Of a stretch of DNA of 64,000 nucleotides, positions 4,310-9,311 are shown piece by piece; the stretch's first letter is position 1, and the number at the start of each line of letters is the position of its first letter. The DNA comes from Alphaproteobacteria bacterium (GTDB lineage Bacteria; Pseudomonadota; Alphaproteobacteria; Caulobacterales; Hyphomonadaceae). The stretch spans positions 62,001 to 126,000 of the forward strand of contig JAGWYJ010000003.1 in the NCBI GenBank assembly GCA_018969425.1. The letters are read 5' to 3'. Position numbers and translations under genes: made by a program. The notes below the pieces were generated by a model. It was not told where the DNA came from. It made no database searches and saw nothing but the letters and a program-made list of their open reading frames with translations.

Positions 4310-4631
4310 TCGTCCCGCTCCTATCCTGTCGTCACTGCGCCGCTTTTGGAGGATCGATCCGCATCAGACCCGCACCCTCATCGCCGACAGGCAAGGCGGA
4401 TGCATGGAAGCATTGCGACGAAACAAAGACCGGACCAAAGGCTCGACGCCCCCGAACGGAACTCAACAGCCCGACCCGACGTCTACACAGTAGACGCCTC
4501 ATACGCATTGAGCACGATCAGGCCGTCGCCTTGAACATAGCGACTTGATGCAGTCCGCACTCTGACGATATCCTCTTTTGCCTGCCGGGCGTATCGCCTC
4601 GGCTATTTGTCAGTCGGACCCCATCCATCCC
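4310..4631. other. Intergenic region between divergent trhA and leuD
   Basis: 322 bp without a convincing gene; the frames open here have no family signature. It must hold the promoters of both divergent genes. A short perfect palindrome, CGTCTAC-ACA-GTAGACG at 4480-4496, is the only clear symmetric element and could be an operator. I could not find a leucine-rich leader peptide or an attenuator hairpin with a T-tract, which would have suggested leu attenuation. Confidence 0.5.
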
Positions 4632-5246
4632 ATGAAGCCTTTCACTCGCCTGACAGGAACCGCCGCTCCTCTTCCGATCGCCAATGTCGACACGGACATG
4701 ATTATTCCCAAACAGTTCCTGAAAACCGTCTCGCGCGAGGGATTGGCCCGGGGTCTATTCTACGAACTCAAGACACGTCCCGATGGAACCGCCGACCCCG
4801 AATTCGTTCTAAACCGGCCCGCCTACAGCGCTGCATCAATACTTATCGCCAAAGAAAATTTCGGTTGCGGCTCCTCGCGTGAGCACGCGCCCTGGGCGCT
4901 TCTCGACCAGGGCCTTTCTTGCGTGATTGCTCCATCATTCGCCGACATATTCTACAACAACTGCTTCAAGAACGGGCTCCTGCCGATTGTCTTGCCCAGG
5001 GACATCGTCGACGATCTCCTTATGAAGGCTGGGGGGCCCAATCACGTCTTCACAATTGACCTGGACGCTCAGACCGTAACAGGACCCGACGGTGTCACCC
5101 ACAGCTTCGACATCGATCCGGGACGCAAGGCCGGGCTTCTGGCCGGACTTGACGACATCGGGGAAAGTCTAGCGCACACATCCAGCATTGAGGCGTTCGA
5201 ACGTCGCCGCATGATGGAAACCCCGTGGCTTCAATCATCCCAGTAA
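4632..5246 (+). CDS. leuD: 3-isopropylmalate dehydratase small subunit
   Basis: 204 aa from the ATG at 4632 (MKPFTRLTG), which gives normal family length; an upstream in-frame ATG at 4578 would add 18 unrelated residues. LeuD pairs with LeuC to isomerise 2-isopropylmalate to 3-isopropylmalate in leucine synthesis. Diagnostic motifs are [13 protein letters not shown] near residues 17-29 and [14 protein letters not shown] in the swivelling domain. The large subunit leuC is not adjacent and is not in the window. leuB follows after one intervening lipoprotein gene on the same strand. Confidence 0.95.
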
Positions 5247-6051: not shown

Positions 6052-7140
6052 ATGCCGCGGCCCGATCATTCCCAGACCCTCCTTCTCCTGCCTGGTGACG
6101 GCATAGGCCCCGAAGTGATCGAGCAGGCCCGTCGGATCGCAGAAGCGGTCGCACCCGACCTGAGAATCGAAGAAGGATTGATTGGCGGGGTCAGCTTTGA
6201 TCATCACGGCGCCCCCCTGACAACAGAGACGCTGGAGCGCGCGAAAGGCGCCGACGCCATTCTCATGGGTGCGGTCGGGGGCCCTCAATGGGACAAGGCG
6301 CCAAGGGATAAGCGTCCGGAGGCGGGCCTACTCGCGCTTCGAAAGGGCCTCGACGTCTATGCCAATCTGAGGCCCGCCTTCTGTTTTCCCGCACTTGCCT
6401 CATCGTCGGCCCTCAAGACTGAGCTGGTCGAGGGACTTGATATCCTCATCGTACGGGAACTGACCTCGGGGGTGTATTTCGGCCAGCCGCGAGGCATCGA
6501 ACGCCTTCCGGACGGACAACGAAGAGGCTTCGACACCCAGAGCTACACCTCCGACGAAATTCGTCGGGTCGCGCGCGTGGCCTTCGAGCTGGCGCGGGGC
6601 CGAAAGGGTAAGGGCGCGAAGTTCGGAGGTGTCCTGTCATGCGAAAAAGCCAATGTCATGGAATCCGGAGTTCTCTGGCGAGAAGAGGTCACCAGCCTTC
6701 ACGGGGAAAGCTTTAGCGATGTGCCTCTGGCCCACATGTACGCTGACGCCTGCGCCATGCATCTTGTGAAAGCTCCCAAAGACATGAATGTCATCCTCGC
6801 GGACAACCTCTTCGGAGATATCCTCTCGGATGAAGCCTCGATGCTGACAGGATCTATCGGCATGCTGCCCTCGGCGGCACTGGGCGATCCAGGGGTTCCA
6901 GGGCTATATGAGCCGGTCCACGGATCGGCGCCTGACATCGCCGGCCAGGGAATCGCCAATCCCTGCGCAGCCATTCTATCGCTCGAAATGGCCATGCGCT
7001 GGAGCCTTGGACGCACAGATGCGGCCGACCGAATTTGGCGAGCGGTCGACCGGGCGCTCGAAGACGGATATCGAACGCGAGATCTCGGTGGCGTTCACTC
7101 GACCCATGAAATGGGCGCCGCTGTCCTTGATCGCCTTTAG
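6052..7140 (+). CDS. leuB: 3-isopropylmalate dehydrogenase
   Basis: 362 aa, full length. It oxidatively decarboxylates 3-isopropylmalate with NAD+ in the last dedicated step before transamination to leucine. Motifs in order: LLPGDGIGPEV at the N-terminus, AVGGPQWD, GLDVYANLRP, the arginine-containing VRELTSGVYFGQPRG, the catalytic lysine in CEKANVMESGVLWR, and the metal/NAD segment LADNLFGDILSDEASML followed by GSAPDIAGQGIANP. All expected catalytic residues are present. ATG at 6052. Followed 181 bp later by an aspartate-semialdehyde dehydrogenase homologue on the same strand. Confidence 0.96.
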   Translation: MPRPDHSQTLLLLPGDGIGPEVIEQARRIAEAVAPDLRIEEGLIGGVSFDHHGAPLTTETLERAKGADAILMGAVGGPQWDKAPRDKRPEAGLLALRKGLDVYANLRPAFCFPALASSSALKTELVEGLDILIVRELTSGVYFGQPRGIERLPDGQRRGFDTQSYTSDEIRRVARVAFELARGRKGKGAKFGGVLSCEKANVMESGVLWREEVTSLHGESFSDVPLAHMYADACAMHLVKAPKDMNVILADNLFGDILSDEASMLTGSIGMLPSAALGDPGVPGLYEPVHGSAPDIAGQGIANPCAAILSLEMAMRWSLGRTDAADRIWRAVDRALEDGYRTRDLGGVHSTHEMGAAVLDRL

Positions 7141-7321: not shown

Positions 7322-8350
7322 ATGATTCGAATAGCTGTGCTGGGCGCCACAGGAACGATCGGACGCGAGATACTGACCGTTCTTGAAGAGCGGGATTTCC
7401 CCGCGAACGACGTCCTCGCAGTGGCGACACGACAGTCGATCGGCAAAGACGTCAGCTTTGGCGATCGAAATCTCAAGACCCGGGATGCGGACACTGTAAA
7501 CTGGTCGGAAGTCGATCTTTGCATCGTTGCTGCCGGATCAAAGGCCGCGCGCCAATGGGCGCCCCGCATAGCGGGTACGGGATGCGTTGTTATCGATACC
7601 TCGTCGGCCTTTCGAATGGAATCTGACATTCCGCTTGTCGTGCCGGAAGTGAACGCGGCGATGCTGAACGGATATGGACTTAGAAACATCATCTCCAGCC
7701 CCGGCGGAGCAACATCCCAGCTCGTCGTAGCGCTCAAGCCCCTGAATGAAGCCGTAGGTGTCAAACGCGCTGTGGTGGCGACATATCAGTCCACATCCGG
7801 CGCCGGACGCGAGGGGATGGATGAGCTTTGGACACAAACCAAGGGCGTCTATGTCAATCAGGGGGTTGAACCGCGCGTCTTCACCAAGCAGATCGCGTTC
7901 AACGTAATTCCTCATGTCGACGAGTTCATGGACGACGGGTCGACTCGCGAGGAGTGGAGGCTCCGCGTCGAAACCCAGAAGATACTCGGCTCTGCCGTGC
8001 AGGTCGCAGCGACTTGCGTCAGGGTTCCGGTATTCGTCGGACATTCTGAGGCCGTTCACCTTGAGCTTGGCCGGCCATTATCGGCCTCCGACGCACGCGC
8101 CCTCCTAAGGGAGGCTCCAGGCGTCATGGTTGTCGATAAGCGCGAAGACGAAGGTTATATGACCCCGGTCGAATGTGTCGGCGAATGGGCTGTATATGTT
8201 TCCAGAATTCGAAACGACCCATCAGTGGAGAACGGGCTGTCGCTCTGGATCGTCTCAGACAATCTCCGCAAAGGAGCTGCGCTGAACGCCGTACAGATCG
8301 CCGAAGGTCTCCTGAACCGAGGCGCCTTTAAAGGAAGGCGCCTGAAGTGA
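7322..8350 (+). CDS. Aspartate-semialdehyde dehydrogenase homologue lacking the catalytic cysteine
   Basis: 342 aa from ATG 7322, preceded by AGGAG; the frame is open 90 bp further up but that extension lacks family similarity. It has the full Asd signature: LGATGTIGREIL Rossmann motif, VVPEVN, YQSTSGAGREGMDEL, QIAFNVIPHVDEFM, CVRVPVFVGHSEAV (substrate Arg and His) and VSDNLRKGAALNAVQIAE. In canonical enzymes the motif NPNCST carries the nucleophilic Cys that forms the thioacyl intermediate. Here the aligned stretch is SPGGAT, residues 126-131, so that position is Gly129 (codon GGA, 7706-7708). The usual reaction should therefore be blocked. It may be a non-catalytic paralogue, comparable to E. 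coli USG-1. I withhold the symbol asd for that reason. Confidence 0.88.
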   Translation: MIRIAVLGATGTIGREILTVLEERDFPANDVLAVATRQSIGKDVSFGDRNLKTRDADTVNWSEVDLCIVAAGSKAARQWAPRIAGTGCVVIDTSSAFRMESDIPLVVPEVNAAMLNGYGLRNIISSPGGATSQLVVALKPLNEAVGVKRAVVATYQSTSGAGREGMDELWTQTKGVYVNQGVEPRVFTKQIAFNVIPHVDEFMDDGSTREEWRLRVETQKILGSAVQVAATCVRVPVFVGHSEAVHLELGRPLSASDARALLREAPGVMVVDKREDEGYMTPVECVGEWAVYVSRIRNDPSVENGLSLWIVSDNLRKGAALNAVQIAEGLLNRGAFKGRRLK

Positions 8351-8408: not shown

Positions 8409-9311
8409 ATGCCCCCTAATCAGGTATCTCTTACAGGGCTTGCAGCGGCCGTGTCCGCCTACACTCTCTGGGGGTTCCTGCCTCTCTATTTTCACCTGCT
8501 CTCCAACCTCCCTCCATGGATCATCTTAGCGCATAGGATTCTCTGGTCGGCGCCGACCGCCCTGTTTCTGATACTGGCGTCGGGCAAACAGCAGGAAGCG
8601 TGGCAGGCCATTCGTCAGCCGGCGCTGTTAATAGCCCTGCTGGCGTCAGGGAGCGCCATCGCAGCAAACTGGGCGATCTATATCTGGGCCGTAACCCAGG
8701 GCCGGATTCTTGAGGGAAGTCTCGGTTACTTCATAAATCCGTTGATTACCTTCATCATCGCGTCAGTTCTATTTCGCGAGAGATTTAATCGTCTGCAGAT
8801 CGCCGCAATCATACTGGCCTCGCTCGGCGTCCTGAATCAGGCGATCACGGTTGGAGAGTTTCCGTGGGTGGCATTGTCCCTCGGCGCAAGCTTCGCTGTC
8901 TACGGGGCGATCAGAAAGTATGCGGCCGTCGACAGCCGCATTGGTTTTGCGATCGAGATCATGTGGCTGGCCCCTATGGCCGCCATCGGCGTGATGCTAT
9001 GGCCTGCAGCTAACGCAGAGATCTTCAAATCAGGTCAGATAAGCACAATTCTGTTGCTGGCCGCAGCCGGACCAATCACATCCATTCCTCTCATCCTGTT
9101 CGCTCAAGGCGCCAGACGACTTCGCCTGTCGACAACAGGAATGCTTCAGTACATTGCGCCCACTTTGCAGTTTATCATCGGTCTAGCTTTGGGAGAGCCG
9201 TTCACGCCCGCGCATGCCCTTACGTTTGGACTGACTTGGGCTGGCGTAGCGCTTTTCACCCTGTCGTCCCTGAGATTGGGTCAGGCGGCGCCGCCTAAGC
9301 CGCAGCCCTGA
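8409..9311 (+). CDS. rarD: EamA family permease, RarD type
   Basis: 300 aa with ten hydrophobic segments in two EamA repeats, the drug/metabolite transporter fold. The first repeat contains AYTLWGFLPLYFHLL and the RILWSAPTALF segment typical of RarD proteins, plus GSLGYFINPLITF at the end of repeat 1. RarD was named from chloramphenicol sensitivity but its substrate is not established. It starts at ATG 8409, 58 bp after the preceding gene and on the same strand, so it may be co-transcribed. It converges with the next gene with only 10 bp between stops. Confidence 0.88.
   Translation: MPPNQVSLTGLAAAVSAYTLWGFLPLYFHLLSNLPPWIILAHRILWSAPTALFLILASGKQQEAWQAIRQPALLIALLASGSAIAANWAIYIWAVTQGRILEGSLGYFINPLITFIIASVLFRERFNRLQIAAIILASLGVLNQAITVGEFPWVALSLGASFAVYGAIRKYAAVDSRIGFAIEIMWLAPMAAIGVMLWPAANAEIFKSGQISTILLLAAAGPITSIPLILFAQGARRLRLSTTGMLQYIAPTLQFIIGLALGEPFTPAHALTFGLTWAGVALFTLSSLRLGQAAPPKPQP

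Follow-up and report, generated by a model that had tools for sequence, protein, structure and literature searches.

The window analysed here, a 64,000-nucleotide stretch of alphaproteobacterial DNA, encodes a homologue of aspartate-semialdehyde dehydrogenase (Asd) that has no catalytic Cys and that we call AsdX. The gene order at the locus is leuD, a Sel1-repeat ORF, leuB, asdX and a rarD-like gene, with the following features:

4578..5246, + strand: leuD (3-isopropylmalate dehydratase small subunit)
6052..7140, + strand: leuB, upstream neighbour of asdX (LeuB, 427 bits vs TIGR00169)
7322..8350, + strand: AsdX (Cys-less Asd homologue), 342 aa (TIGR01296, 394 bits; cut-off 324.2)
7598..7600, + strand: Thr93 of AsdX (Asn in 36/36 canonical Asd compared)
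7697..7714, + strand: SPGGAT, degenerated active-site motif (canonical Asd, NPNCST)
7958..7960, + strand: Arg213 of AsdX (Lys in 36/36 canonical Asd)
8409..9311, + strand: rarD-like EamA transporter gene, downstream neighbour of asdX

The ATG of asdX at 7322 is directly preceded by an AGGAG-like ribosome-binding site, and the translation contains RNIISSPGGATSQLVV. A promoter scan found none, and the matches from a plasmid search are all below 60% identity. The position of the gene beside leuB, part of the original prediction, is borne out by the LeuB match listed above. Of 23 asd loci examined, 15 have LeuB on the same stretch, between 34 bases and about 3 kb away, and a rarD-like gene is present on 17 of those 23 stretches. 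Within the genus, 11 of the 14 AsdX-type copies have LeuB on the same stretch. Strict leuB linkage is not general: LeuB is unseen on the stretches of G005, G011 and G014 (contig end), and likewise in the five Cys-bearing genera that were tested (G038, G047, G093, G094 and G102).

The active-site motif and fold of AsdX

AsdX contains both Pfam semialdehyde-dehydrogenase domains and scores 442.6 bits against NF011456 (cut-off 223). Translation of 7322–8350 confirms the predicted replacement of NPNCST by SPGGAT, with Gly129 for the Cys and Ser126 for the first Asn. The six codons are Ser126 (AGC, 7697–7699), Pro127 (7700–7702), Gly128 (GGC, 7703–7705), Gly129 (GGA, 7706–7708), Ala130 (GCA, 7709–7711) and Thr131 (7712–7714). 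Residues N126, N128, C129 and S130 are each conserved at 90% or above in an alignment of AsdX with 50 of the best 80 named alphaproteobacterial loci, and the Cys is kept in all 80 of these best loci (79 NPNC, 1 SPNC). The accompanying claim that nearly all Asd signatures are kept holds for the substrate residue Arg234 and the acid-base residue His241, but it overlooks the changes Asn128 to Gly and Ser130 to Ala in the motif and, at two active-site positions far from it, Asn93 to Thr and Lys213 to Arg.

A read error at the motif had been proposed as an artefact that could explain the missing Cys. The same PGG is found in the independent genome of a sister species (G010, 91% identical), and several substitutions are required to produce the motif, so it reflects neither chance nor a sequencing error. 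A conserved Cys elsewhere in the active site had also been considered; the four cysteines of AsdX are found at the same places in canonical Asd (13, 16, 34 and 28 of 36). Compensation by another Cys is rejected because no cysteine is peculiar to the Cys-less proteins.

The AlphaFold2 model of AsdX (pLDDT 87.3, pTM 0.86), computed from the alignment of AsdX with 50 named loci, aligns with Vibrio cholerae Asd II (PDB 2qz9) at TM 0.93 and 44% identity, and with the Pseudomonas aeruginosa USG-1 homologue 2hjs at TM 0.90. With pLDDT 87 and TM 0.93 to V. cholerae Asd II, the Asd fold is predicted to be kept in AsdX. Residue 129 marks the start of a helix in the model.

Distribution of Cys-less copies

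Fifteen genomes of the genus were searched, including the one described here (G000). An AsdX-type copy is present in 14 of them and is Cys-less in 13 of these 14; in G007 (540 contigs) no AsdX-type copy was found. G000 and G010 read SPGGAT, and 11 other copies of the genus, which form clade B, read PDG[AVQ]T. The sole AsdX-type copy of the genus with a Cys is that of G003 (ANPNCST). Within the family, 101 of 105 genomes give a match at E 1e-80, and the AsdX-type copies of G092 (VPGGSS) and G101 (IPGPVA), single genomes of two neighbouring genera, are Cys-less.

Across the order, the pattern NPNC[ST]T with a following Gln matches 335 of 398 genomes, and the backward-pattern control columns are 0. 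The 63 misses comprise 12 genomes of the genus, G092 and G101, and 49 others that were searched again, 39 of them with a match. All 30 full-length copies read among these 39 show NPNC. The remainder includes G360, with unreadable letters at the motif, G284, with only an NPNC copy of another branch, and six fragments that do not show the motif. G304, from another family, has a gene reading CPGPAA that follows leuB by 34 bases, and its second Asd carries NPNC. This case is drawn from one genome (87% complete), as no close relative is found among 60 genomes of its family. In all, 16 genomes are Cys-less: 13 of the genus, G092, G101 and G304. The motif is common to the species within each Cys-less clade, and no stop occurs inside any Cys-less copy. 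The first Asd copies read in G050, G094 and G256 keep the Cys.

A second, canonical Asd

The original prediction called for a genome-wide search for a second asd with an intact motif, and such a gene is present. A search of the genome (3.25 Mb, 91 contigs, 99.98% complete) at E 0.01 yields AsdX and one further Asd, hereafter the companion (L002 type). It lies on another contig, is 40% identical to AsdX and carries NPNC in the motif ANPNCVAA. The companion is canonical at the 12 positions of our key-residue table other than 130 (93, 98, 126, 128, 129, 155, 156, 210, 211, 213, 234 and 241). The ORF next to its gene is one that we take to encode a class II DAHP synthase.

Companions are found in 13 of the 15 genomes of the genus, all with NPNC; the two without are G009 (73% complete) and G012 (77% complete). 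A Cys-bearing second Asd is thus present in 14 of the 16 Cys-less genomes, and the other two are these incomplete ones. The companions of G092 and G101 are 75% and 62% identical to the query. Across the order, a companion is detected at E 1e-110 in 25 of 398 genomes. Its presence is not sufficient for Cys loss, because the Cys is kept in the first copy of G003 and of 10/10 genomes of three other genera, g21, g23 and g25. The companions of these ten genomes, all outside the family, show 58–62% identity, and their first copies read NPNC. Other combinations also occur. G004 has three Asd genes, namely a Cys-less AsdX type, a companion and a third (L167, L028) that groups with a companion of family f2, and some genomes of other genera contain a further Asd of another branch (NPNCTTM; L172, L174, L277 and L278).

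Number of Cys losses

RpoB was sought by tblastn in 30 genomes and found in 28 (not in G006 and G014). The RpoB tree has 27 rows; the G011 row was dropped because its fragment falls outside the family, and small second fragments of G003 and G015 were left out. The G011 fragment (L239) is 71% identical to the reference and possibly represents contamination of that assembly. In the RpoB tree, the genus is joined by G092 and G101 in one clade (100/99) with G047 and G049 as its sister; the genus of the latter two has one Asd match per genome. A single loss, which would group all Cys-less genomes together without G003, is rejected on RpoB (p-AU 0.0019) and on LeuB (p-AU 0.0001; 15 rows, including three from outside the group). 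Grouping G092 with G101 is rejected as well (p-AU 0.018).

The Asd gene tree was computed with the motif columns removed and contains 12 of the 14 genus copies and 13 of the best 80 named loci, omitting G005 (near-identical to G011) and G009 (partial). The G003 copy lies in the same clade (SH-aLRT 99) on a short branch and therefore looks vertically inherited. Its placement varies with the marker. Asd positions it with G000/G010 (93/92) and rejects G003 with clade B (0.019), RpoB gives the same position weakly (77/22), and LeuB positions it with clade B and rejects G003 with G000 and G010 (0.0005). A loss common to G000/G010 and clade B is likewise rejected by LeuB (0.003) and by neither RpoB (p-AU 0.42) nor the Asd gene (0.17). 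Later regain of the Cys in G003 is unlikely, as its copy keeps 116 of 119 invariant positions. If there was no regain, the Cys was lost at least three times in this clade, and four losses are probable. G304 adds one loss elsewhere, and the Escherichia coli Usg lineage another.

Residues lost and kept

To describe the erosion of the active site we used 74 positions at which all of 35 canonical Asd and at least 13 of 14 companions share one residue; the companions have 0/74 changed by construction, which is therefore no evidence. By majority of rows, 8 positions are changed in G000/G010, 13 in clade B (9 of its 11 rows), 23 in G092, 18 in G101, 25 in G304, 29 in Usg and 1 in G003. All six Cys-less lineages depart from the canonical residue at positions 93, 126, 128, 129 and 213; the random mean is 0.011, and five such positions occur in 0 of 100,000 draws. 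Only 93 and 213 are independent of how the lineages were chosen, because 129 served to select them and 126 and 128 adjoin it, and changes shared among related Cys-less lineages may be ancestral. Lys213 is replaced by Arg in four of the six.

Other residues differ from lineage to lineage. Gln replaces Arg234 in G092, G101 and Usg, and clade B and G304 no longer have His241. The AsdX lineage retains Tyr155 and Gln156, both of which are missing from G092 and Usg. AsdX keeps Arg98, Gln156, Glu210, Arg234 and His241, so that the pocket, and perhaps some chemistry, may remain. Changes at what is presumably the NADP site, in the Rossmann motif, are T10G, G11S and S39D in G101 and G11N, G14A, S36A and S39M in G304. 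These changes suggest that the function common to the group probably does not depend on catalysis or on NADP.

Arg213 appears to correspond to the phosphate-site Lys246 of Haemophilus influenzae Asd, as judged by motif matching, by which the residue correspondence between the two proteins was made throughout. In PMC3276109, the H. influenzae mutants C136S and K246R are given as having <0.01% and 3.3% activity. Taken with the residues replaced in AsdX, these values make it a well supported prediction that the protein is without Asd activity. They also argue against a novel mechanism for the Asd reaction, one of two options raised in the original prediction, which gains no positive support.

Relation to Asd II and USG-1

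AsdX shares its fold, Rossmann motif, Arg98, Gln156, Arg234 and His241 with Asd of the asd_B type (TIGR01296), of which V. cholerae Asd II (2qz9) is an example. It differs from these enzymes in the replacement of Cys129, Asn128, Asn126, Asn93 and Lys213, and in that its genome contains a second Asd with NPNC. V. cholerae likewise has two Asd in one genome, and its second isoform is reportedly named an enzyme in the title of a paper; Asd II reads NPNCST, unlike AsdX.

A closer parallel is USG-1 (E. coli K-12 usg, NF005957), which is also an Asd homologue without the catalytic Cys. E. coli Usg has the motif VPDSLT and is changed at the same five positions as AsdX, with Lys213 to Arg common to both. 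The gene neighbourhoods are different, pdxB-usg-truA in E. coli versus leuD-leuB-asdX-rarD here. The scores are also reversed: NF005957 scores Usg at 683 bits and AsdX at 266.8 (below the cut-off of 273), whereas asd_B scores them at 251 and 394. The NF005957 cut-off by itself is weak, since the Cys-bearing G003 copy scores 278.9, and it is the gene tree that carries the argument. The tree groups AsdX with the G003 copy (99), which points to separate origins of AsdX and Usg. The Usg branch in this tree is long and consists of one Usg row whose own place is unsure. Alignment with both families, as the original prediction had advised, therefore shows the same kind of loss as in USG-1 but places AsdX within alphaproteobacterial Asd. 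Its suggestion of a paralogue with another role, comparable to USG-1, agrees with the second NPNC Asd in the genome and with the strong purifying selection on a Cys-less protein; membership of the USG-1 family is not upheld.

Several observations concern USG-1 itself. Among solved structures, E. coli Usg (L290) has its best match in V. cholerae Asd II, a protein with the Cys (324 bits, NPNC), from which we infer that Usg may be a decayed Asd II copy with the same history in Gammaproteobacteria. By alignment, 2hjs reads SSPCAVAAEL, with Ala at the catalytic position and a Cys immediately before it. In Salmonella, PMC6358828 reports that deletion of usg and truA slowed growth under oxidative conditions and that a usg mutant was restored by plasmid truA, which makes polarity possible in that mutant. 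Titles and abstract openings of the open-licence literature among the matches listed include none on Cys-less alphaproteobacterial Asd or USG-1 chemistry.

Selection

AsdX is under strong purifying selection. Values of dN/dS were obtained by the Nei-Gojobori method with our own script; some of the underlying dS values are close to 1 and only approximate. For G000/G010, dN/dS is 0.056 for AsdX, 0.045 for LeuB, 0.074 for the companion and 0.110 for RarD. Six clade B pairs give 0.021, 0.062, 0.049, 0.094, 0.134 and 0.148 for AsdX, and LeuB gives 0.048, 0.068, 0.093 and 0.142 in four of them. The Cys-less proteins thus range from 0.02 to 0.15 over seven pairs and resemble LeuB in the five comparable ones. 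Protein change is faster after the loss, with stems of 0.48 (clade B) and 0.38 (G000/G010) versus 0.12 for the Cys-bearing G003.

Interpretation

The best reading is that AsdX is a selected pseudoenzyme, similar to USG-1 in kind but of separate origin. We consider it likely that AsdX is an ancestral Asd whose catalysis was taken over by the companion and which is kept for another role, presumably in binding or as a scaffold. AsdX would be the ancestral alphaproteobacterial Asd, and its catalytic residues would have been lost once a second, catalytically complete Asd (L002 type) was able to perform the essential reaction; the takeover would thus have preceded the Cys loss. The old copy would then have been kept for another job of the folded protein, one for which the Cys is dispensable and, in the most derived relatives, so is an intact NADP site. 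A second, non-catalytic job is probable because the Cys was lost more than once among the relatives and yet the gene is still protected. Our most likely guess for this job is a non-catalytic one in which the Asd dimer would serve in binding or as a scaffold.

A partnership with the companion is an unlikely but not far-fetched variant, with AsdX as a regulatory or stabilising subunit in mixed dimers or tetramers formed through the conserved Asd dimer interface. According to PMC3276109, the subunits of the canonical Asd dimer are proposed to communicate through a network of residues, one of them a Tyr. The AsdX lineage keeps Tyr155, matched to that residue by motif, as well as Gln156. The companion is only 40% identical and belongs to another Asd branch, however, and the loss of Tyr155 and Gln156 in G092 and Usg also speaks against such oligomers. 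Slightly less probable again is that AsdX catalyses a new reaction on a related substrate, for instance using Cys232, another group or no covalent intermediate. The AsdX lineage does keep Arg98, Glu210, Arg234 and His241, and 14 of 15 Cys-less proteins contain Cys232; this Cys is equally common in canonical Asd (34/36), though, and is Val in E. coli Usg. Nor does any shared chemistry emerge across the lineages: clade B and G304 have lost His241, G092 and G101 Arg234, and G101 and G304 residues of the Rossmann motif.

Gene decay and gene transfer fit the data poorly. That AsdX is a recent pseudogene in the course of being lost is very improbable: the companion could make it dispensable for catalysis and its protein change accelerated after the loss, but dN/dS of 0.02–0.15, reading frames free of internal stops and clade-wide motifs contradict decay. 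Least credible of all is a true USG-1 family member gained by transfer. The losses are of the same kind (VPDSLT in Usg) and the NF005957 score falls just under the cut-off, but the asd_B score is higher and the tree positions AsdX with the G003 copy inside alphaproteobacterial Asd (SH-aLRT 99).

The lineages constitute a repeated natural experiment in which the catalytic site of an essential enzyme was lost several times and the protein stayed under selection. The function of USG-1-type proteins thereby becomes testable, by comparing the G003 protein, which has the Cys, with its sisters that lack it. More tentatively, and with the odds in our view somewhat against it, the second non-catalytic function of the asd_B-type Asd of Proteobacteria could be older than the Cys losses. 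Once another Asd takes over the chemistry, the active site could then erode in parallel, at the same positions and often with the same replacements, as in USG-1, and the protein would be kept for its older function, AsdX and Usg being independent exposures of a single hidden moonlighting role.

One consequence concerns annotation. The curated NCBIfam equivalog models TIGR01296 and NF011456 name Cys-less proteins Asd with scores above cut-off, even the clade B protein tested, L008, which is also without the catalytic His. Metabolic reconstructions and essential-gene predictions could therefore pick the wrong gene.
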